Positions 15,876 to 43,581 are shown, counted from the first letter of the stretch. The stretch: 64,000 nucleotides of DNA from Rhodothermales bacterium (GCA_951812585.1 OX638318.1:2168380-2232379); one strand, 5' to 3'. The notes: generated from the sequence alone by a model not told the origin. Made by a program: numbers and translations.

Positions 15876-16226
15876 CTACGGCTTGGAGCGTTGCAGCTGA
15901 GCGCGGAGCTGCGCCTTCTCGGTTTCGCTGAGCGAAGGCCAAACTGCTTCAAGCTGCGCTCCGAGGTGCAGCTGCCGCTTCTCTATGGAGGTGAGCTGCC
16001 CGAGGGGTGTTAAAAGGATGGTCAGCCAGCACAGCAGCGCGCCGGCTGCGACCAGGATGACCGCCTGCTTCAACGTGGGTCGATGCGCGGCGGCTTCCAA
16101 TGCATGCGCGCTGGCGCGAATCTCCCGCGCGGCGGACTCCAGCGCCATAAGCACTGGTGCGGCTCGCCGCTCATAATCGGCTGCGTCTGCCTGACGAATA
16201 CGGTCGCGGAGCCCCGGCGTAGCCAT
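15876..16226 (-). CDS. Small mobilization-operon membrane protein (MobB-like)
   Basis: A 116-residue protein encoded 2 bases after the relaxase gene. The first 50 residues are charged and helical, with possible coiled coil; residues about 51-76 form one hydrophobic membrane segment (VILVAAGALLCWLTILL); the tail is again charged and helical. Small membrane proteins of this shape often follow MobA genes and help dock the relaxosome to the coupling protein. The function is inferred from position; the sequence itself shows no known motif. Confidence 0.6.
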   Translation of the reverse strand: MATPGLRDRIRQADAADYERRAAPVLMALESAAREIRASAHALEAAAHRPTLKQAVILVAAGALLCWLTILLTPLGQLTSIEKRQLHLGAQLEAVWPSLSETEKAQLRAQLQRSKP

Positions 16227-16228
16227 CC

Positions 16229-17080
16229 TCAGTGGCCCAGGTCATGGTCCGGGCTCCGCTCCCATTGCCACGCAGGCAAGTCGCGCGCGCGCTGCAGGGC
16301 GAAGGTCTCTCCAAAGCGTGCTTCCAGCTTGCGCAGCGATACGTTGGGGCCGATGCTGCTGCTCTTGGCATACTCGTGGCCATCGGTCACGAGTAGCCCG
16401 GTGCGCCGGGTCCTCAGCGACAGTCCATGACGGGCCAGGCGCGCGTGGAGGTCCTGCCAGCCTGCTGCATCGTCGAATTCGTGTCCTGCCGCCCGCTGCA
16501 CCAAAAGCTGGAAAGGAAGCGTCTTTTTGCGGCACAGCGCTTTGTATGCGCCCTTGCTCAGGGACTGACTGCGCTCCGGAGGGGACTGCCCAGGAAGCTG
16601 ATACAGATGCCCAGGCACCTGCCGGAAGCCATACCGGACTTCCGCCTTGCGCAGCGTGGCTTGAATGGCGCGGTACTTCCGATACATCGGCTGCGCCTTG
16701 CCCGTGTCGGGATGGACACGGTTGGACATGATGTGCAGGTGCCGGTAGGCTTCATCGCCATGCGCAACATACACGGACTGGTGCGCTGCAAGCGACAACG
16801 TATGCATGAGCTTGTCGGCTACGGCTGTCATCTGGCCGCGCGTCGGGCCATCTTCCGGAGCCCATGAAACGGAGAGGTGGTATACCGGCTTCTGAACGCG
16901 CTCGCTTGCACGAGCCGTAATCGTCATCTCCCACGCGATGTCCTGGAGGCTGGCTGTGCAGACCAGGTTGCGATCCGTCGTCCACGCAATGCGGGGGCGC
17001 TCCGGGTGGCGAGTCTTGGGGCGCTCGAGGTATCGCGCAAGGGACTGGAACGAGGTGCTGGTCTGGGACTGTGCGATCAT
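16229..17080 (-). CDS. mobA: MOBP-type relaxase (mobilization nuclease)
   Basis: A 283-residue relaxase that would nick and carry plasmid-type DNA at an oriT. It matches the relaxase/mobilization nuclease pattern: SFQSLARYL at residues 10-18 (candidate catalytic Tyr17), RIAWTTDRNL, PVYHLSVSW near residue 66, and the metal-binding motif III HLHIMSNRVHPDTGKA. Its ATG overlaps the mobC stop (ATGA, 17077-17080). No primase or helicase domain follows, so it is a minimal form. No coupling protein, integrase or replication gene is visible nearby, so transfer would need help in trans. Confidence 0.87.
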   Translation of the reverse strand: MIAQSQTSTSFQSLARYLERPKTRHPERPRIAWTTDRNLVCTASLQDIAWEMTITARASERVQKPVYHLSVSWAPEDGPTRGQMTAVADKLMHTLSLAAHQSVYVAHGDEAYRHLHIMSNRVHPDTGKAQPMYRKYRAIQATLRKAEVRYGFRQVPGHLYQLPGQSPPERSQSLSKGAYKALCRKKTLPFQLLVQRAAGHEFDDAAGWQDLHARLARHGLSLRTRRTGLLVTDGHEYAKSSSIGPNVSLRKLEARFGETFALQRARDLPAWQWERSPDHDLGH

Positions 17081-17367
17081 GGCTTAGTGGTGCGGAGTAT
17101 CTGAATGAGCCCTTGCATGGTGGCCATTGCCTGCTGCTCTTCCGGTCCGTCCCCGAGCGCCTGCACCTGCCGAGCGAGCCGGAACACCTGGCGCAAGATT
17201 TCCTCCGCCGCACGGAGCTGTACGGACTCCCTGAGCGCGCACCTGCGCACATAGGATGCTACGGACAGGCGGGTCCGGGCTGCGTTCTCCCTTATGGTGC
17301 GGTGCTCCGCATCTGTAACTCGGATTGTTATCCCCCGACTGCGCGGACGGGCTTCCGATTGGGCCAT
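17077..17367 (-). CDS. mobC: MobC-like relaxosome accessory protein
   Basis: A 96-residue basic protein with an N-terminal ribbon-helix-helix-like segment (SRGITIRVTDAEHRTIRENA) and the VASYVRRCALRE helix typical of MobC/TraJ-class oriT-binding proteins. The longer reading from 17394 adds residues with no support; the ATG ending at 17367 gives the usual N-terminus. It overlaps mobA by ATGA and is first in the operon, directly next to the repeat region that is the candidate oriT. It probably binds that DNA and recruits MobA (inference). Confidence 0.78.
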   Translation of the reverse strand: MAQSEARPRSRGITIRVTDAEHRTIRENAARTRLSVASYVRRCALRESVQLRAAEEILRQVFRLARQVQALGDGPEEQQAMATMQGLIQILRTTKP

Positions 17368-17421: not shown

Positions 17422-17480
17422 CGCTGCACGCGCCAGGATACGGTACAGACAAGTTTGGCCTGCTGCTTGTCCGTGCAGCG
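17422..17480. repeat. Nested inverted repeat, candidate oriT beside mobC
   Basis: An outer 9-base perfect inverted repeat (CGCTGCACG at 17422-17430, CGTGCAGCG at 17472-17480) encloses an inner 6-base one (GACAAG at 17448-17453, CTTGTC at 17466-17471). The right arms are directly adjacent. The structure lies about 55 bases upstream of mobC, exactly where oriT sits in mobilizable plasmids. No nic consensus could be assigned. Confidence 0.45.
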
Positions 17481-28182: not shown

Positions 28183-28289
28183 ACAGGTGCAGCAGTGACC
28201 AGTCCAATATTACATATTACAACGCGCAGCTTGGACTAGAAGCGGTTAGCACGCACTTCTTTGTGTATTTTCGGATTCCTCACACTCAC

Positions 28290-31200
28290 ATGATTCATTG
28301 CCCCATGCGATGGACTGCTTCTTGCTCGGTGCTTGGAACACTCATGGTATGCTGTCTGCCCGCGGCGCATGCGCAGACTGTGGCCTATGATACGACACTA
28401 TACAGCGCGTTGGAGTACCGCAGCGTCGGGCCACACCGAGGCGGACGCTCCGCGGCCGTTTCAGGTGTACCCGGGCGGCCGATGCTGGCATACTTTGGGG
28501 CTACTGGCGGTGGCGTCTGGCGTTCAACGACCGGCGGTGCTTCCTGGGAAAGCATTTCTGACGGATACTATGGCGGCTCTATCGGGGCGGTCGCGGTCAG
28601 CACATGGGATCCCAACGTCATTTACGTAGGCGGCGGCGAAAAGACCGTGCGCGGCAACGTGTCGCACGGCTACGGCATGTTCAAATCCGTGGACGCGGGT
28701 CAGTCCTGGGAAGCCATTGGGCTGGAGGATTCGCACCGCATCCCGCGCATTCGGATACACCCGCGCAACCCGGACTTGGTCTATGCAGCGGTGCTCGGTC
28801 ATCTTTCAGGGCCGAACGAAGAGCGGGGCATCTATCGCACGCGCGATGGTGGCACCTCCTGGGAGAAGGTGCTGTTCATAAGCGACGAGGTCGGCTTTGT
28901 GGACCTTGTGATGGATCCGACGAATCCGCGCGTGCTGTATGCCAGTGCCTGGCGTGTCATAAGGACCCCTTACAGCCTTGAAAGCGGCGGGCCAGGCTCG
29001 GGCATCTGGAAGACAACCGATGGCGGCGACTCATGGCATGAGGTGACAGGCCAAGACAACGGCCTGCCCAAAGGGGTATTAGGCATTAGCGGGGTGTCTA
29101 TATCGCCGGTCAATTCGCAGCGAGTGTACGCGATCATTGAGGCGGCCGAAGGCGGCGTGTTCCGCTCGGATGATGGCGGCGCACATTGGCGGCGCATCAA
29201 CCAGGACCGCAGCTTGCGTCAGCGTGCCTGGTACTATACGCGGATCTACGCGGATACGCAGAATGAGGATCTGGTGTATGTGCTCAACGTTCGCTTCTGG
29301 CGCTCCAAGGATGGCGGCCGCACGTATCAAAGCATCTCCACGCCGCACGGCGACCACCACGACCTGTGGATAGATCCCGACGACAACCAGCACATGATCA
29401 TTGGCGACGACGGCGGTGCGCAGGTTACCTTTGATGGCGGGGACAATTGGAGCACCTACTATAACCAGCCTACGGCGCAGTTTTATCGCGTAACGACCGA
29501 TAACCACTTTCCGTATCGCATCTACGGCGCGCAGCAGGACAACTCTACAGTACGCATCCTGCACACATCCAGCGGCACCAATGAGCGGGAGTGGGAGCCC
29601 ACGGCAGGCGGCGAGAGCGGCTGGCTGGCCCCCAAGCCGGACAATCCCGAGATCGTCTATGGCGGTTCGTATGGCGGATATCTGACGCGCGTCGACCACA
29701 GCACCGGTGAGCGCCGAGCGGTGAACGTGTACCCGGACAACCCGATGGGGCACGGGGCCGAGGGGATGAAGTATCGGTTCCAGTGGAACTTTCCCATCGT
29801 GTTTTCCCAGCACGACTACGATGTGCTCTATGCCGCCGGCAACCATCTGTTCAGAAGCACGACGGAAGGCCAGTCATGGGAGATAATCAGCCCGGACCTG
29901 ACCCGTGCCGACTCGTCGAAGCTGGGTCCAAGCGGCGGCCCCATCACCAAGGACAATACCGGTGTGGAATACTATGCCACGATCTTCACCCTGGCGGAGA
30001 GTCCACACGATGCGGCAGTGCTCTGGGCCGGCTCCGATGATGGTCTTTTGCATGTGACGCGCGATGGCGGTGCCACCTGGACGGACGTGACGCCCGACGG
30101 CATGCCCGAGTGGATGATGATCAACGACATTGTGGCGCATCCGTTTGAAGAAGGAGGTGCCTACTTCGCAGGCACGCGCTATAAGCTGGATGATTTCACA
30201 CCGTATCTCTACAAGACCGTAGACTTCGGTGCCACCTGGACGATGATCACCGATGGCATTGATGCGCAGCACTTTACCCGCGCCATCCAGCCGGATCTGG
30301 TGCGCCCCGGCCTATTGTATGCGGGTACAGAGAGCGGGATGTACATTTCATTTGATGATGGCGTGCACTGGACATCCTTTCAGCGCAACCTGCCGATTGT
30401 GCCCATCACGGATCTGGCATGGAAGGATCACGACCTGATTGTAGCCACGCAGGGCCGGTCCTTCTGGATCATGGACGATGTTTCCTTGCTGCATCAGCTT
30501 TCGGACGAAGTTGCCACAAGCACGTTGTGGCTCTACGAGTCCAGCCCGCTGGTGCGCGGCGCGGGCAGCAGCGTGGTGCTGCGATACTACTTGCAGGAGG
30601 CATCGGATTCTACGGGCATTATACTGCGGATTCTCGAGCAGGATGGTGCCATCATCAAGACGTACGATGGCGAGGACCTGGATGCGCAAGCAGGTTCGAA
30701 CACTTTCCGATGGGACACACGCTATGAGGATGCGGAAGATTTTGAGGGCCTCATCATGTGGAGCGGCAGCGTGCGGGGTCCGCGCGCTGCGCCCGGCTCA
30801 TACCGCGCGCGCCTTATTGCACACGGAGACTCCGTAGAGGTAGGCTTCGAGATTCAGAAGGATCCACGGTCTGCGTCTACGCTGGAAGATCTTCAGGCGC
30901 AGTTCGATTTCCTTATCGGCATTCGCGACAAGCTGACCGAAACGCACAGGGCGATCAAGCAGATTCGGCGCGTTCGCAGCCAGGCCCGGTCTGCGGCCGA
31001 CCGCTCGGATGCCACGGATGCGGTCAAGGCCGCTGCTGACAGTTTGATTGATCAGTTGACCAGCATTGAGCAGGCGTTGTATCAGACCAGGAATCAGAGC
31101 CGCCAGGACCCGTTGAATTTCCCGATTCGCCTCAACAACAAGCTCGCCGCCGTTGCCGGCAACGCGTCTATAGGGGGCTTTCGCCCGACCGACCAGGCCA

Positions 31201-31340
31201 TCGCGGTCCGCGACGACCTCACCAGCAGGATTGATGCGCAGCTGGCCATGCTGCAAGCGCTTCTGGAGAAGGATGTGCCGCGGCTCAACACCATGATTCG
31301 GGAGTCCGCTGTGCCTGCGATCCTGCTCGAGGACGAATAG
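28290..31340 (+). CDS. Secreted VPS10/sortilin-type Asp-box beta-propeller protein
   Basis: About 1016 residues with a signal peptide ending in AAHAQ. The body is built from at least eleven Asp-box (BNR) repeats such as RSTTGGASWE, KSVDAGQSWE, RTRDGGTSWE, KTTDGGDSWH and VTRDGGATWT, forming one or two sortilin-like propellers. The last 250 residues are an immunoglobulin-like segment and a helical tail without Asp boxes. Large VPS10-like proteins are common in Bacteroidota and may be hydrolases or binding proteins; no catalytic triad could be assigned. ATG 28290 or 28305 gives a better signal than 28263. Confidence 0.88.
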   Translation: MIHCPMRWTASCSVLGTLMVCCLPAAHAQTVAYDTTLYSALEYRSVGPHRGGRSAAVSGVPGRPMLAYFGATGGGVWRSTTGGASWESISDGYYGGSIGAVAVSTWDPNVIYVGGGEKTVRGNVSHGYGMFKSVDAGQSWEAIGLEDSHRIPRIRIHPRNPDLVYAAVLGHLSGPNEERGIYRTRDGGTSWEKVLFISDEVGFVDLVMDPTNPRVLYASAWRVIRTPYSLESGGPGSGIWKTTDGGDSWHEVTGQDNGLPKGVLGISGVSISPVNSQRVYAIIEAAEGGVFRSDDGGAHWRRINQDRSLRQRAWYYTRIYADTQNEDLVYVLNVRFWRSKDGGRTYQSISTPHGDHHDLWIDPDDNQHMIIGDDGGAQVTFDGGDNWSTYYNQPTAQFYRVTTDNHFPYRIYGAQQDNSTVRILHTSSGTNEREWEPTAGGESGWLAPKPDNPEIVYGGSYGGYLTRVDHSTGERRAVNVYPDNPMGHGAEGMKYRFQWNFPIVFSQHDYDVLYAAGNHLFRSTTEGQSWEIISPDLTRADSSKLGPSGGPITKDNTGVEYYATIFTLAESPHDAAVLWAGSDDGLLHVTRDGGATWTDVTPDGMPEWMMINDIVAHPFEEGGAYFAGTRYKLDDFTPYLYKTVDFGATWTMITDGIDAQHFTRAIQPDLVRPGLLYAGTESGMYISFDDGVHWTSFQRNLPIVPITDLAWKDHDLIVATQGRSFWIMDDVSLLHQLSDEVATSTLWLYESSPLVRGAGSSVVLRYYLQEASDSTGIILRILEQDGAIIKTYDGEDLDAQAGSNTFRWDTRYEDAEDFEGLIMWSGSVRGPRAAPGSYRARLIAHGDSVEVGFEIQKDPRSASTLEDLQAQFDFLIGIRDKLTETHRAIKQIRRVRSQARSAADRSDATDAVKAAADSLIDQLTSIEQALYQTRNQSRQDPLNFPIRLNNKLAAVAGNASIGGFRPTDQAIAVRDDLTSRIDAQLAMLQALLEKDVPRLNTMIRESAVPAILLEDE

Positions 31341-31890
31341 GGCAGGTACAAAAAGGGCGGCTGCACCGAATGCGGCAGTGTAGCCACTTCAACGCACTGC
31401 GTCCCAAAGGTGCGGCCGTTGCGGAACGCCGCGTACGCCGTGTGTTTTGGTGTTCCTCGGCGATCAGCGCTTGGCACTCGCGGGTTGAAGGCCCGTCTCA
31501 CATGGCGTCGGCCTTCTTCGAGCCACGCGACACGGCCCATGTTCCGCTTGACGAAATCTACCGAGCGGTCGATCACACCTTTCTCGAGCGCATAACCGCG
31601 GTCGGAGACGAGCGATATCAAAGGTCCGCGAATGCGCTCTTCGTCTATCGTATTGTAGTCTTTGCCAGTTCCTGGAAACGCGACTGCGGTTTCCCCTGCC
31701 TGCGGCAACCGACGATTGAGGCTTTTGCCGAAGAGCAGCAGTCCGGCTGCAGTCGCGCAGACATTGGCACCCCTCCCAGCGAGCTTGCTAGGAATTGATG
31801 GGCATTGGCGCATTTGCGTGCATGGCAAGATCGGAGGGCGCGTTATGCGGTGTATGCAGCGCCGACACGTGCGCGGGCTCCCGCGTCTGA
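31341..31890. other. Intergenic stretch with unresolved open frames on both strands
   Basis: About 550 bases follow the Asp-box gene. A minus-strand frame (about 31341-31897, continuing antisense into the upstream gene) reads RAFNPRVPSADRRGTPKHTA and VEVATLPHSVQPPF. A plus-strand frame (31370-31798) reads EPRDTAHVPLDEIYRAV. Both keep about 65-70% GC at third positions, so codon use does not choose between them. I recognise neither. It may be a decayed gene. Confidence 0.25.
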
Positions 31891-32050
31891 TGCACATAGA
31901 TCGTAACTATATTGTTGCAAAAAATTCGAGCGAACATATAGTATTGATAGGTATCAGAATGTATAATAGGTGATAATAGCGACTAGGTGATCCTATATGA
32001 ACGCTTAGCACATGCTAATTACCACAGGCTAAGTAGGGCAGGTGTGGCGA
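31890..32050 (+). promoter_or_regulatory. AT-rich control region with TAGGTRAT-like repeats
   Basis: Base composition drops sharply to AT-rich here. TAGGTGAT occurs at 31967-31974 and 31984-31991, and the variant TAGGTATC at 31948-31955, all in the same orientation, spaced 19 and 17 bases apart. The region precedes the histidine kinase/regulator/traF/trbB operon and is the natural place for its promoter and operator. Binding by the operon's own regulator is inference. Confidence 0.4.
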
Positions 32051-32122
32051 CAGCAGTCGTAGGGTTTTTGGTTGAGGAGGCTGGCGCCTTGCGTTCCCCA
32101 CGCTTGTGGGCAGGCAATCTAT

Positions 32123-32148
32123 GCGATGACTCTTGGCGATGACTCTTG
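32123..32148 (+). repeat. Perfect tandem 13-mer abutting the histidine kinase start
   Basis: GCGATGACTCTTG occurs twice back to back (32123-32135 and 32136-32148), ending exactly where the kinase ATG begins at 32149. OmpR-family regulators often bind direct repeats, so it may be an autoregulatory site in the leader. It could equally be a chance duplication. Confidence 0.5.
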
Positions 32149-32949
32149 ATGCCGATGGCTGCTTCTTCTTCCGTGAGAGGTCCAGTGCCGCGCCGCAGGG
32201 TGCCCGACGAGCACGATGATGTCCGGCTGGATCTGGCGAGCCTGGCGCACGACATGCGCTCGCCCCTTTGCACCATAGCGCTCCTTAATGATCAGCTGCA
32301 GGCATTGGACGCGCAAACAGATCCGAATGCGCGTGATGCGTGCCATAAAGGTATTGCAGCACAGGTTCAGCGCCTGGCGGAACTGGTCGCTACGCTAGAG
32401 GGGCACACCGGGCATGCCGCCATGCTGATGCAGTGCAAAGGCGTCAACCTGCAGACGCTGCTGGAAAACACGCTCAGCCTCCACGCCGCTTTGCATGAGC
32501 CGCAGGGTTATGCGTTTGCGCTGGATATTCCGAAGGCACTGCCGTACGTCTTTGCTGATCGAACTGCGCTGGGCCGTGTCCTGGACAACCTCCTGGACAA
32601 TGCTGTAAAGTACAGCGATCCACATCGCATCGTTGTGCGGGCCCTGGCGCACCATCGCCAGAACGGATCATTCGTGGTGCTGGAAATACAGGACCAAGGT
32701 CCCGGCATCCATCCCAAGCATTGGAAGCACCTCTTTGAGCCGTTCTACCGCGCAGGTCATGAGGGCCCGGGTACCGGATTAGGCCTTGCCATCGTACGAA
32801 GAATCGTGGATGCACACCGGGGAACGATTGGGGTGGACTGTACGCCGGGCGGCGGCACCACTTTCCGCGTGCTGCTGCCCGCAGCGGCTGCGACGAACGG
32901 AATCTCTCACACCATACCAGTCAACCGTCATGTATACAACCGTCAGTAA
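32149..32949 (+). CDS. Soluble two-component histidine kinase without sensor domain
   Basis: About 266 residues. The H-box SLAHDMRSPLCTIALL places the phospho-accepting His near residue 34, followed by a short dimerisation helix pair and the HATPase domain: N-box DNLLDNAVKYS, G1 DQGPGI, F-box FEPFYRA and G2 GTGLGLAIVRRI. There is no transmembrane segment and only about 28 residues precede the H-box, so the signal must be cytoplasmic or delivered by a partner. A TTG at 32146 is an alternative start. The 3' end overlaps the response-regulator gene by 20 bases. Confidence 0.9.
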   Translation: MPMAASSSVRGPVPRRRVPDEHDDVRLDLASLAHDMRSPLCTIALLNDQLQALDAQTDPNARDACHKGIAAQVQRLAELVATLEGHTGHAAMLMQCKGVNLQTLLENTLSLHAALHEPQGYAFALDIPKALPYVFADRTALGRVLDNLLDNAVKYSDPHRIVVRALAHHRQNGSFVVLEIQDQGPGIHPKHWKHLFEPFYRAGHEGPGTGLGLAIVRRIVDAHRGTIGVDCTPGGGTTFRVLLPAAAATNGISHTIPVNRHVYNRQ

Positions 32950-33661
32950 CGACCATAATGTCAAGCCTCGTGCGCTCGTAGCGGAAGACGATTGGTACAC
33001 GGCCAACATGTTGGAGTCGATCTTCAAGCGTGAAGGCTACGAAGTAGTCGTCTGCAAAAACGGGGCCGATGCCATGCACCAGCTCACTTATGGCGGCCCG
33101 TACGACATCGCCCTCCTTGATGTTGTGATGCCCAAGATGAGCGGCTTGGAAGTACTTCGCCAAGCGCGCGAAGCGGGCATAGCGGTGCCAGTAATGATCG
33201 TGTCGGGTAGGACCAAGGAGCACGAGCGTATTGATGGGCTCGTGATGGGTGCTGATGACTATATCGTCAAGCCGTTCAGCACCCGGGAGCTGTTGGCGCG
33301 CACTGCGGCAGTGCGGCGGCGATGCGAGATCAGGCAACCATTACCGAAGCGGATTCGCATGGGCGATGTTCTTGCCGACTTCGAGACGTTCAGCGCCATG
33401 CGCGGCGCAGAAGCCATCCACTTTACACCGCTGGAGTGGGGCGTGCTGCGTCACATGGCACACCGTGAAGGCAGAGCGGTGTCACGGCAGGAATTCAATG
33501 TACATGTCCTGAAGATCCCTGCCTCTATTGAAACGCGCACGATAGACCGTCACGCCTATGCGCTGCGCTACAAGATTGATAAGAATCCCAAACAGCCCCA
33601 CCACATTCTGGCGGTCAAAGGTATTGGGTATCGCCTGAACGACTTTGAGCATCTGGCGTGA
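32930..33661 (+). CDS. OmpR-family response regulator
   Basis: A 243-residue regulator. The receiver domain has the acidic pair in AEDD near residue 19, phospho-acceptor Asp64 in ALLDVVMPKMSG, the Thr/Ser switch in MIVSGRT and the Lys in DYIVKPFS. The C-terminal winged helix (about 140-240) ends ILAVKGIGYRLND, the usual OmpR/PhoB hairpin. The ATG at 32930 lies within the kinase gene, and the stop forms a GTGA overlap with traF at 33658-33661, so all are translationally coupled. Its likely target is this operon's own upstream region (inference). Confidence 0.92.
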   Translation: MYTTVSNDHNVKPRALVAEDDWYTANMLESIFKREGYEVVVCKNGADAMHQLTYGGPYDIALLDVVMPKMSGLEVLRQAREAGIAVPVMIVSGRTKEHERIDGLVMGADDYIVKPFSTRELLARTAAVRRRCEIRQPLPKRIRMGDVLADFETFSAMRGAEAIHFTPLEWGVLRHMAHREGRAVSRQEFNVHVLKIPASIETRTIDRHAYALRYKIDKNPKQPHHILAVKGIGYRLNDFEHLA

Positions 33662-34239
33662 GGCGCATAACTCGTGCTTTGGCGCTGGTGGTGGTGGTCA
33701 TGGCGATAGCCGTGCACGCAGCGCCGTGGCGCAGCCTCACCCTGCCGCTGCACTACAACGTCACCGCTTCGCTTCCGCAAGGTCTCTATCGCGCCCAGGC
33801 AAAGCAAAGCATAATGCGCGGCGACATAGTGCGGGTGTGCGTGCCCGCACAGGTCGCGCGCATGGGACGGCGTCGCGGTTACCTGGGTTCAGGCTCGTGT
33901 CCAGAACAAACTGCGCCCATCGGCAAGATGGTGGTCGGCCTACCGGGCGACACGGTGCATGTGGACAAGCGCCAAATACGCGTCGGATCACGGCTGGTGC
34001 TGTCGGCACCGCTGCAGGACCGTGATACTCGCGGACGCCGCGTCCAGGGTGCGCTCGGCACGCATGTGCTGGGAGCGGACGAGTGCTTTGTTCTCAGCAC
34101 TTTCAGTCAGCAGAGCTTTGACAGCCGGTACTTTGGACCGGTCGCATGCGTGCCGCCCGTAGTGGTCTTGACCCCCCATTCCCGCAAAGCGCGACGCGAG
34201 CTGGACGTGCTTCTCAGAGCATTGCAAGGCCGTGCGTGA
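33658..34239 (+). CDS. traF: TraF-type S26 signal peptidase (conjugative pilin maturase family)
   Basis: A 193-residue membrane peptidase. The N-terminal hydrophobic segment is about residues 7-20. The catalytic Ser38 is in NVTASLPQGLYR and the general base Lys90 in PIGKMVVGLPGDTV; Asp155 lies in SQQSFDSRYFGP. These positions nearly coincide with the Ser37/Lys89/Asp155 set of RP4 TraF as I recall it, so the enzyme looks intact. RP4 TraF cuts and cyclises the TrbC pilin. It starts at GTG, overlapping the regulator stop, and overlaps trbB by 8 bases. No pilin gene is visible in the window. Confidence 0.85.
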   Translation: MRRITRALALVVVVMAIAVHAAPWRSLTLPLHYNVTASLPQGLYRAQAKQSIMRGDIVRVCVPAQVARMGRRRGYLGSGSCPEQTAPIGKMVVGLPGDTVHVDKRQIRVGSRLVLSAPLQDRDTRGRRVQGALGTHVLGADECFVLSTFSQQSFDSRYFGPVACVPPVVVLTPHSRKARRELDVLLRALQGRA

Positions 34240-35209
34240 TTACACAGCGCGCCTGGCTGCGCTCATGCGGGAGTACCTGGGCGAGCCGATCCTGCGTGCA
34301 CTCAACGATGATGATATTGAGGAGATCTACGTCAATCCCGATGGGGTCGTGCGCCATGTGAGCCACACGCATGGCCGCCTGGCTACGCCCTTTCGTATCA
34401 GTGCAGCAGATATTGAATCATTCCTCCGGGCGGTAGCCACCCAGGCGGGCACGGGCATTAGCACAGACCGGCCAGCGCTTGCCGCGGCGCTGCCGCGATC
34501 CTTTGGCAAATGCCGCATACAGGGTTTTGTACCTCCGATCACAGAAGGACCTGCCATGGTGGTGCGCAAGCCTCCGGCACGCCTGATACCGTTGGAAGAG
34601 TACGTAGCGCAGGGCGTGCTCAGTGCGACCGGGTGTAGGCATCTCAAGCGAATCATCAGCAACAGGCGCAACATTATCGTTGCGGGTCCTACGGCCAGCG
34701 GCAAGACCACACTATGCAACGCGATCCTGGCGGAGATCTCTGCGCAGTTTCCCGACGACCGGCTACTGGTGTTGGAGGGCACGCCGGAGCTTCGCATTAC
34801 CAGCCAGGATTACCTTCGGCTTCATACGAGTGACACCATTAATATGCGGCAGCTGGTCCAGTACAGCCTTCGCTGCACGCCCAACAGGCTGATTATCGGT
34901 GAAGTGCGTGATGGTGCGGCAAAGGATCTGCTGGATGCCTGGATTACGGGACATCCAGGCGGGTGCGGCACGGTCCATGGCGAAGACTGCGAGCGGGCGC
35001 TGCAGCGCTTGGCAAGGCTGGCGCGCGACGGGGCGGGCGGGGCAGACCAGCGCGCCATGGTACTGCAGGCCGTGCATTATGTGGTGCACATCGCGGGTTA
35101 TGGCACCGGCCGTGAGGTGCGCGCCATCGGGCGCGTCACAGGAACTGATGGCGGTGCGTTCACCCTGGACTACTGTGACCTTGACGCAGACCCCCCTGTG
35201 CAACGGTGA
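34232..35209 (+). CDS. trbB: TrbB/VirB11-type secretion ATPase
   Basis: A 325-residue hexameric ATPase of the type IV/II secretion traffic class, closest in pattern to P-type conjugation TrbB. The N-terminal domain has EEIYVNPDG; Walker A is GPTASGKTT (residues 152-160), the Asp box is around LVLEGTPELR, Walker B is LIIGEVRDG and the His box is GCGTVHGED. It starts at GTG 34232, within the end of traF. Normally trbC to trbL follow; here the next gene after 340 bases is glycogen branching enzyme. All ATPase motifs are intact, so it is not an obvious relic. Confidence 0.87.
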   Translation: MRDYTARLAALMREYLGEPILRALNDDDIEEIYVNPDGVVRHVSHTHGRLATPFRISAADIESFLRAVATQAGTGISTDRPALAAALPRSFGKCRIQGFVPPITEGPAMVVRKPPARLIPLEEYVAQGVLSATGCRHLKRIISNRRNIIVAGPTASGKTTLCNAILAEISAQFPDDRLLVLEGTPELRITSQDYLRLHTSDTINMRQLVQYSLRCTPNRLIIGEVRDGAAKDLLDAWITGHPGGCGTVHGEDCERALQRLARLARDGAGGADQRAMVLQAVHYVVHIAGYGTGREVRAIGRVTGTDGGAFTLDYCDLDADPPVQR

Positions 35210-41751: not shown

Positions 41752-43581
41752 ATGCAACAAGGTTATACTATTCTCGCGGCGAGCTGCGCATCTCTACTTT
41801 TGGTGGGGGGTTGCCTCGGCACGCGGCAGCTTGCCGAGGCGCCGCCGCAGTTTCCGCCGGTATACGCGCACCAGATATATGCATTCGAGGTTCGCGATGC
41901 AGACGGCGTGCCGATCGTGCATCCGTTCCTCGGGGGTTTCAATATTCCGCGGCCGCAGCTGGTGGATATTGATGGCGATGGCGACTTGGATCTGTTTCTG
42001 CAAGAGCTGACCGGTCGACTCAAACACTTTGAGAACATCGGGAGCAGTATCCAGCCCGCCTTTCGTTGGCGCAGCGACCAGTATTTGGGCCTTGATATTG
42101 GCGAGTGGTACCGCTTTGTGGACCTGGACAGCGATGGCGATCTGGATCTCCTCGGAGAACTGCCCTACAGTCATCTACGGCTCTTTCGGAACGACGGCAC
42201 GCCTGCAGCACCCGCCTTTACCACTGTGTTCGATTCGCTGCGCACGGCCAATGGCGAGCTGCTCTTTGCAGACAGCCAGAATATCCCCAGCCTTGTTGAT
42301 ATCGACTGTGATGGCCTTTTGGACCTGTTTGTAGGGCGGCTGGATGGCACTGTGTATCGGTTCGAGTCCGTAGGCGACGATGAAAACGGGTTACCGCGTT
42401 TTCAGTTGATAGATGAGCGTTTCGAAGACATCGAAATCGTTGCACAGATAGCCACGCAGCATGGGGCCAATGCGCTTACGTTTCACGACGTAGATGACGA
42501 CGGGGACCTGGACCTTTTCTGGGGCGACTTCTTTGAGCCGGGCGTATTGCTGATCCGGAACACGGGGACCTGCGAAGCGCCTAACCTGCGCAATGAACCA
42601 GAGCCGTTCCCGCAGGAGAATCCCGTGTCTACAAGCGGATACAACGCTACCTTGTTCGCTGACATCAACGGAGACACGAAGGCGGATTTCTTCGTGGGCG
42701 TGTTGGGCGGGGCCTTTCAGCCCAACACGACCACCGTTGAGAACTTCTACTTCCTGGAGTCCACCCAGGATGGATTCCAGCTCCAAACAGAGCAGTTTCT
42801 CTCGCAGATCGACGTCGGTGCCGAATCCATTCCGACCTTCGCGGATCTGGACGGGGATGGCGATCAGGATCTCTTGCTCGCAAACAAGATTGATCAGCGC
42901 GACTTTGAAACCGCGCGCATCTACCACTACGAAAACCGCTCAGGGCCCGAAGGCGTGCTCTTGCAGCTGGTGGGTACGCTGCCCCTCTATGGCTATCACA
43001 GCTTTGCGCCTGCCTTTGCGGATCTGGATAGCGATGGCGATTTGGACATGATGACCGGCACCTGGAATTCGGATGTCCGCTACTACCGCAATGATGGCAC
43101 GGCAGCGGCGTACGATTTCGTAGAACTAAGCGAGCACACTGTTGACCTCACGCGCGGCAGCTACAGCAAGCCTGCGCTGGTTGACATTGATGCCGATGGC
43201 GACTACGATCTGTTCATCGGCGAATCGTCCGGCGAGCTCAACTTTTACCGCAACGTCGGCGATCCTTCGCAGCCGCAGTTTGCGCTGATCAGCGACAATT
43301 TTGACGACATTGATGTGGGCCGCCTGAGCGCGCCTTCCTTCACCGACTTGGACGGCGATGGCGATCAGGACATGGTACTCGGGCGCGAGGCGGGCGCGGC
43401 ACTGCTCTATTTGAACGTAGGCACGCCAGAGGCACCGCTATTTGCACCGCAGGGTACGCTCAACGCCGACTTGCCGTACTACTCAGCGCCGGCTTTCGTC
43501 GACATTGACGGCGACGGGTTGGTGGACCTGTTCAGCGGCGGCATGGGCGGCGGCCTGATGTTTTACCAGCGCATCCCGTAG
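41752..43581 (+). CDS. VCBS/FG-GAP repeat lipoprotein
   Basis: A 609-residue lipoprotein with lipobox LLVGGC (Cys21). It carries about ten calcium-binding-type repeats such as DIDGDGDLDLF, DLDSDGDLDLL, DVDDDGDLDLF, DLDGDGDQDLL and DIDADGDYDLF, spread from residue 65 to the C-terminus and predicted to fold as an integrin-like propeller. It is probably displayed on the cell surface. It lies 12 bases after the YncE-like gene, so co-transcription is likely. A hairpin at 43839-43861 may end the operon. Confidence 0.86.
   Translation: MQQGYTILAASCASLLLVGGCLGTRQLAEAPPQFPPVYAHQIYAFEVRDADGVPIVHPFLGGFNIPRPQLVDIDGDGDLDLFLQELTGRLKHFENIGSSIQPAFRWRSDQYLGLDIGEWYRFVDLDSDGDLDLLGELPYSHLRLFRNDGTPAAPAFTTVFDSLRTANGELLFADSQNIPSLVDIDCDGLLDLFVGRLDGTVYRFESVGDDENGLPRFQLIDERFEDIEIVAQIATQHGANALTFHDVDDDGDLDLFWGDFFEPGVLLIRNTGTCEAPNLRNEPEPFPQENPVSTSGYNATLFADINGDTKADFFVGVLGGAFQPNTTTVENFYFLESTQDGFQLQTEQFLSQIDVGAESIPTFADLDGDGDQDLLLANKIDQRDFETARIYHYENRSGPEGVLLQLVGTLPLYGYHSFAPAFADLDSDGDLDMMTGTWNSDVRYYRNDGTAAAYDFVELSEHTVDLTRGSYSKPALVDIDADGDYDLFIGESSGELNFYRNVGDPSQPQFALISDNFDDIDVGRLSAPSFTDLDGDGDQDMVLGREAGAALLYLNVGTPEAPLFAPQGTLNADLPYYSAPAFVDIDGDGLVDLFSGGMGGGLMFYQRIP

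Follow-up and report, generated by a model that had tools for sequence, protein, structure and literature searches.

A kinase-regulator-TraF-TrbB operon as a probable islet of a scattered chromosomal type IV secretion system in marine Rhodothermales

Relaxase-bearing conjugation systems are normally taken to be selfish mobile elements, and the system considered here closely resembles the P-type (MPF_T) Tra/Trb type IV secretion systems (T4SSs) of IncP/RP4 and Ti. Like these, it has a TrbE-type VirB4, TrbB, a TraF maturase, a TrbC-type pilin, a TraG-type coupling protein, and a MobP relaxase whose catalytic residues are conserved and which has a NikA/TraJ-like accessory protein encoded upstream. 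Four of its genes, for a histidine kinase (HK), a response regulator (RR), TraF, and TrbB, form an operon within a stretch of 64,000 nucleotides from a Rhodothermales bacterium (GCA_951812585.1, OX638318.1:2168380-2232379), the whole of which is called the window below. Unlike in IncP/RP4 and Ti, the parts of this system lie at no fewer than four chromosomal places, TraF and TrbB are encoded behind a two-component pair, there is no plasmid or integrative and conjugative element (ICE), and inheritance is vertical. The four genes are taken here to be the control, maturase, and motor islet of a scattered, vertically inherited, chromosomal P-type (RP4/Ti-like) T4SS, with a probability of roughly 0.85; this figure, like the gradings given below to DNA transfer and to the reach of the regulator, is an estimate and was not computed.

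Two-component pairs genetically tied to a T4SS, with a regulator of the OmpR family, are known as VirA/VirG in Agrobacterium and as BatR/BatS in Bartonella. VirA, however, is a membrane sensor, whereas the Rhodothermales kinase has neither a membrane segment nor a sensor domain, and TraF and VirB11 are encoded in the same operon. T4SSs whose genes are dispersed on a chromosome are said to be rare and to be known chiefly from the Rickettsiales (PMC3158045, PMC2653234). In the rickettsial rvh archipelago, too, the virB/virD4 genes lie dispersed on the chromosome and have been passed down vertically within a bacterial group (PMC2653234), and relaxase-less systems have been treated in a T4SS survey as protein secretion (PMC3158045). 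Yet rvh has duplicated VirB4, VirB8, and VirB9 and multiple VirB6, whereas the Rhodothermales genes are single-copy; furthermore, the Rhodothermales system, unlike rvh, has kept a pilin maturase as well as a full relaxosome (NikA and relaxase), and it has a two-component pair of its own, encoded in one operon with VirB11. Thus, scattering and vertical inheritance have a precedent in rickettsial T4SSs, while the retained relaxosome, the sensorless kinase, and a linked chaperone-usher pilus are new. No account of such a system was found in the literature on sponge Rhodothermales.

The genome that holds the window (G000) is a single contig, C1, of 3,198,349 bases. It was compared within a set of 16 genomes from one marine Rhodothermales family, covering six genera (g1-g6), most of which, besides G000, are fragmented metagenome-assembled genomes (MAGs). 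Several of the MAGs have names that suggest sponge samples. Gene trees were built from quick searches, and dS was near saturation in the dN/dS comparisons. The family includes at least one sponge symbiont, MPNB, a MAG (bin80) from Aplysina aerophoba (PMC5649159).

The operon and its distant counterpart

The operon and the region before it consist of the following features:

31880-32020, no strand assigned: AT-rich stretch of 140 bases upstream of the operon, 37% GC against ~60% GC in its surroundings
32146-32949, plus strand: HK, a soluble, sensorless histidine kinase (Pfam HisKA and HATPase_c)
32930-33661, plus strand: RR, an OmpR-family response regulator, ATG start (Pfam Response_reg and Trans_reg_C)
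33658-34239, plus strand: TraF-type S26 peptidase, a pilin maturase, GTG start (Pfam Peptidase_S26)
34232-35209, plus strand: TrbB/VirB11 traffic ATPase, GTG start (Pfam T2SSE)

A first-pass annotation had reported four intact genes joined by overlaps of 20 bases (HK/RR), 4 bases (RR/TraF), and 8 bases (TraF/TrbB), and the coordinates of the open reading frames and the domain searches confirm this. The kinase may start at TTG 32146 or, more likely, at ATG 32149. It was correctly called soluble and sensorless: in all 15 genomes (G000 and 14 relatives; proteins of 214-274 aa) it has no membrane or hydrophobic segment and no sensor domain, and its H35, N148/N152, and D183-x-G-x-G box are invariant in the 15 orthologs. 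The catalytic residues of RR are also invariant across the family orthologs, as are, in 15 of 15 family sequences, four cysteines of TraF together with the Ser38, Lys90, and Asp155 that had been noted as intact. TraF scores 101.3 bits against the NCBIfam model TraF_Ti (TIGR02771), over the cut-off of 100.25; a PDB sequence search gave nothing useful for it. TrbB, which retains its Walker A motif and is 51-79% identical to the copies in other family genomes, matches TrbB_P (TIGR02782) best, at 277 bits; this is below the equivalog cut-off of 304.6, as expected for a divergent phylum. Since dN/dS of the block genes against the nearest relative is only 0.09-0.25 (with dS near saturation), the genes are under selection, and their arrangement is not due to chance. 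As far as base composition and sequence can tell, the AT-rich stretch is probably the promoter or regulatory region of the operon; it contains a weak sigma-70-like match at 31915-31942.

The virB/virD4 part of the machine is encoded ~1.14 Mb away on the same contig (C1 ~144.9-154.6 kb, minus strand), where single genes lie in the order VirB2-B3-B4-B5-B6-B8-B9-B10-VirD4, with TrbI/VirB10 at C1:146658-147188. No TraF and no TrbB/VirB11 is encoded in this locus. The TraF and TrbB of the window are thus exactly the two parts that the locus lacks, and one copy of each was found in the genome. The first-pass annotation had suggested that the operon could be a signal-controlled module whose partner components are encoded elsewhere, which is supported by the locus without traF and trbB, by the single copies of these two genes, and by the conservation of the block across genera. 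It was wrong, however, to call the module "minimal," since the machine is complete but dispersed, with part of its relaxosome in the window itself.

Identities in the cluster were assigned by Pfam and NCBIfam on the proteins of relatives, among which TrbC/VirB2, VirB3, TrbE, a VirB5-type T4SS protein, TrbL/VirB6, VirB8, CagX/VirB9, TrbI/VirB10, TraG/VirD4, a MobP relaxase, and a NikA-like protein were identified. The TrbC/VirB2 pilin was recognized in the ortholog of G010 (PF04956, 42.5 bits), and its G000 homolog was found by tblastn. For VirB4, VirD4, and TrbB, the best NCBIfam models are TrbE, TraG, and TrbB, all with scores below the equivalog cut-offs. Pfam CagE_TrbE_VirB missed the VirB4 of G000, which was recovered by tblastn in two frames.

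Several further observations were made around virD4. A piece of the gene, 141 bases long and 96% identical, is repeated at ~177.6 kb in G000 (L185:1643-1783), and extra partial copies of the VirD4 C-terminus are found near contig ends in several g6 genomes (G011, G012, and G014). Directly downstream of VirD4 (C1 ~122-144 kb; L079:2593-17305 and L078:1-6532) there are three tandem copies, ~97% identical and ~8 kb each, of the gene for a giant 1,829-aa surface protein with DUF4397 and Por_Secre_tail; in G006 and G008, too, T4SS genes are flanked by homologs of this protein.

Conservation and inheritance in the family

Kinase-regulator-TraF-TrbB order, for which the first-pass annotation had proposed a search in related genomes, is kept in three genera (g1, g5, and g6). 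TrbB is present in 16 of the 16 family genomes (partial in G012), RR and VirD4 in 15 each (VirD4 in some as fragments only), the relaxase in 14, and VirB10 in 13. No genome has more than one VirB10 except G015, which holds an additional ICE-like copy, and family-type VirB4 is single as well. RR orthologs score 226-547 bits, versus at most 99 for paralogs and 188 for the best match in other families. In G006, VirB5-B6-B8-[relaxase]-VirB9-B10-D4 is followed by TrbB-TraF-RR-HK on the opposite strand and then by a chaperone-usher cluster; the contig also holds VirB3 and VirB4, immediately upstream of this run. In g1, by comparison, these parts are spread over four places. The block also lies beside T4SS genes in G008 and G013, and in G004 HK-RR closes a T4SS-linked gene run. 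Among the relatives, most of them fragmented MAGs, G007 and G011 keep the block without several T4SS genes. The 6-kb flanks of the block in G000 are common to no relative, and its places are unrelated. The annotation had named, as telling against its proposal, a complete trb locus that carries a traF and trbB of its own, combined with a lack of conservation of the block; this combination was not observed.

The trees of aconitase, TrbB, RR, VirB4, VirB9, VirD4, and the relaxase all group G000, G001, and G005, and all recover a g6 clade whose inner pairs are the same, with deeper branches differing in places. The relaxase gene is flanked by PEP-hydrolase/GFO-oxidoreductase and TonB-receptor genes in G000-G004, which represent four genera; in G005 the same flanking site is present without the relaxase gene, which is located elsewhere. 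All parts of the system are under purifying selection. The nearest integrase is ~650 kb from the block and ~76 kb from the virB locus. The ICE-like trb loci of two relatives (G009 and G015) and the trb loci of other families in the order, listed as ICE-encoded loci L035 and L036 and outgroup loci L046-L054, resemble the family system in having TraF-TrbB beside VirB genes in P-type order, but they are contiguous, ordinary trb operons without an orthologous HK-RR. Taken together, the conservation, the broadly congruent trees, the fixed relaxase site, the distant integrases, and the ICE loci without HK-RR exclude both a recent mobile element and a chance neighborhood.

A different history would be that of a degenerating ICE, broken up, with its parts dispersed and heading for loss. 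The frameshift in virB4 of G000, the spread of the parts over the chromosome, and the virD4 fragment at ~177.6 kb are all compatible with such remains. However, instead of a contiguous element with an integrase nearby, parts ~1.1 Mb apart were found, and instead of host-incongruent, horizontal inheritance, trees that broadly agree with aconitase. Given also the vertical conservation across six genera under purifying selection, the constant place of the relaxase in four genera, and the integrase distances above, decay of an ICE is very unlikely. It was also considered whether the block is a mobile cassette in its own right, an idea rejected because no recombinase was seen.

The T4SS genes are accompanied by a second cluster that encodes two to three DUF4402 proteins, a PapD-like chaperone, an usher-like barrel, and a MotA/ExbB protein. 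In G000 it is located as follows:

C1 ~161-167 kb (L080:3313-9072): chaperone-usher-like cluster, also found in L082, L083, L089, L090, L037, and L043

This cluster adjoins VirD4 in g1, g3, g4, and g5; in G006 and G014 it is next to the four-gene block. Its chaperone- and usher-like proteins received no Pfam or NCBIfam name and nothing useful from a PDB sequence search and were recognized by fold only. The model of the former matches PapD/FimC (pLDDT 79, E 4e-10), and a low-confidence model of the latter matches FimD/PapC (pLDDT 62, E 2e-10). From these models, the cluster resembles a divergent pilus system of the chaperone-usher type that has been inherited together with the T4SS; that the pilus acts as an adhesin when mating pairs form would be a guess.

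The proximity of this cluster bears on a further idea, which the first-pass annotation had also raised, namely that TraF and TrbB have been put to a new use. They would then form a signal-controlled module unrelated to the T4SS, for example one for the maturation and export of some other pilin or of the chaperone-usher pilus. The block does move as a unit, it persists in G007, a genome that yielded no T4SS gene, and chaperone-usher genes adjoin it in two genomes. But it is just TraF and TrbB that the T4SS of the same genome is without, TraF-TrbB are neighbors within the ordinary trb operons of the ICE-like and outgroup loci, and chaperone-usher pili are not known to depend on a TraF or a VirB11 ATPase. 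With a complete T4SS and its TrbC-type pilin present, this idea is scarcely tenable.

Relaxosome genes and neighbors in the window

The first-pass annotation had regarded TraF and TrbB as orphans without T4SS neighbors. As far as the virB/virD4 genes are concerned, this holds, the locus being ~1.14 Mb distant. However, a relaxosome gene pair only ~15 kb from the block had been overlooked:

16229-17080, minus strand: MobP/TraI-type relaxase (PF03432, 89.8 bits, and TraI_middle)
17077-17367, minus strand: NikA-like ribbon-helix-helix relaxosome protein (PF21983, 53.6 bits, cut-off 27)
15876-16226, minus strand: small protein after the relaxase, with no Pfam match; G001 has a homolog (59% identity) in the corresponding position
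17431-17441, minus strand: weak candidate P-type nic site, GTATCCTGGCG, upstream of nikA, its sole occurrence in the window

NikA precedes the relaxase with an ATGA overlap and adjoins it in all genomes examined. The relaxase is 53-54% identical to relaxases inside the T4SS clusters of relatives (54% over 257 residues), its Y17 and H107-D109-H114-H116-N120 are invariant in 13 genomes, and its dN/dS of 0.17 indicates purifying selection. In g6, relaxase and NikA are encoded inside the T4SS cluster. The nic-like 11-mer was also seen in G006, G009, and G015; there it is inside the virB8 coding sequence and was judged a coincidence.

These genes are central to the question of what is transferred. 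It could be that the T4SS has been domesticated, by analogy with Rickettsiales or Agrobacterium, to deliver proteins into the cells of sponges or protists or into competing bacteria, with the two-component pair timing delivery and the relaxase being a leftover or serving separate mobile elements. Such a role would fit the retention of VirD4, the position of the relaxase gene apart from the virB genes in g1-g5, the match of chromosomal scattering and vertical inheritance to rvh (PMC2653234), and the origin of at least one relative, bin80 of Aplysina aerophoba, from a sponge (PMC5649159). Nevertheless, the invariant catalytic residues, the low dN/dS, the constant company of NikA, and the place of both genes within the g6 cluster are not what a leftover would lead one to expect, and secretion-only T4SSs are usually relaxase-less (MOBless, PMC3158045). 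Protein delivery is thus considered unlikely, and DNA transfer is somewhat more likely than not to be the main job of the resident T4SS.

Two other relaxase genes were noted in G000. One, a second MobP relaxase at C1 ~1.21 Mb (L184:6989-8194), adjoins a transposase, and the other, a remnant at C1:1426071-1426518, is ~5 kb from an integrase. Both possibly belong to mobilizable elements able to use the resident T4SS.

Downstream of the operon is GlgB and upstream a 1,025-aa secreted protein with a beta-propeller of the Vps10/sortilin type (28263-31340), separated from it by ~800 bases without a convincing gene. Neither adjoins the block in relatives, and a tie of the block to the glgB context was rejected because the neighbors are not conserved there. 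Farther on, an FG-GAP repeat protein of 609 aa (41752-43581) matches TcdB_toxin_midN at 20.4 bits, below the cut-off of 24.8; this probably reflects the shared beta-propeller repeat only.

A dispersed machine and its possible working

As judged from the sequence, the dispersed T4SS is complete, with complementary parts, vertical inheritance, purifying selection, and intact catalytic residues. Six observations weigh against taking the block as its islet. In the trees, the ICE-like copies of G009 and G015 are placed among the family sequences, on long branches. In g2, g3, and g4, HK-RR is split from TraF-TrbB. G007 keeps the block, yet no VirB4, VirB10, VirD4, or relaxase was found in it, possibly because of gaps in the MAG. 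In G000, virB4 is split into two frames near codon 376 (L078:13095-15514); given that both halves are constrained (dN/dS of 0.12 and 0.09 versus G001) and that the gene is open in G001, the frameshift is either recent or an assembly error. The nic-like GTATCCTGGCG is absent at this place in G001 and in other genera, leaving a weak candidate for an origin of transfer (oriT), and because this nic-like sequence is not conserved, no oriT is claimed. Finally, no motif common to the upstream regions of HK and VirB2 was found above shuffled controls in 11 genomes; consequently, control of the virB operon is putative.

By analogy with RP4 and Ti, TraF would trim, and perhaps cyclize, the TrbC-type VirB2 pilin, while TrbB, acting at the inner membrane together with VirB4 and VirD4, would power pilus assembly and substrate transfer. 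NikA and the relaxase would process the DNA and supply it in single-stranded form. With less support, the soluble kinase may read a cytoplasmic cue or state or a partner protein, and the OmpR-type regulator may switch on its own operon, thereby timing the appearance of the maturase and the motor as the limiting parts. That the regulator controls other T4SS operons too is somewhat more likely than not.

A more tentative proposal, for which the odds are rather less than even, is that the whole family carries conjugation as a fixed and regulated trait: this resident, non-mobile machine, whose own relaxosome is encoded at a constant site on the chromosome, moves chromosomal DNA in the manner of an Hfr strain between neighbors, for example in a sponge, under a cytoplasmic two-component switch and with the aid of the chaperone-usher pilus; gene exchange would then be a host function and not that of a selfish element. 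For the analysis of MAGs, "orphan" tra/trb genes can be islets of a complete but dispersed machine that is missed by cluster-based detection. If the reading given here is true, a relaxosome-equipped T4SS with its own signaling pair, inherited vertically across six genera, would point to conjugation as a maintained function of the host.

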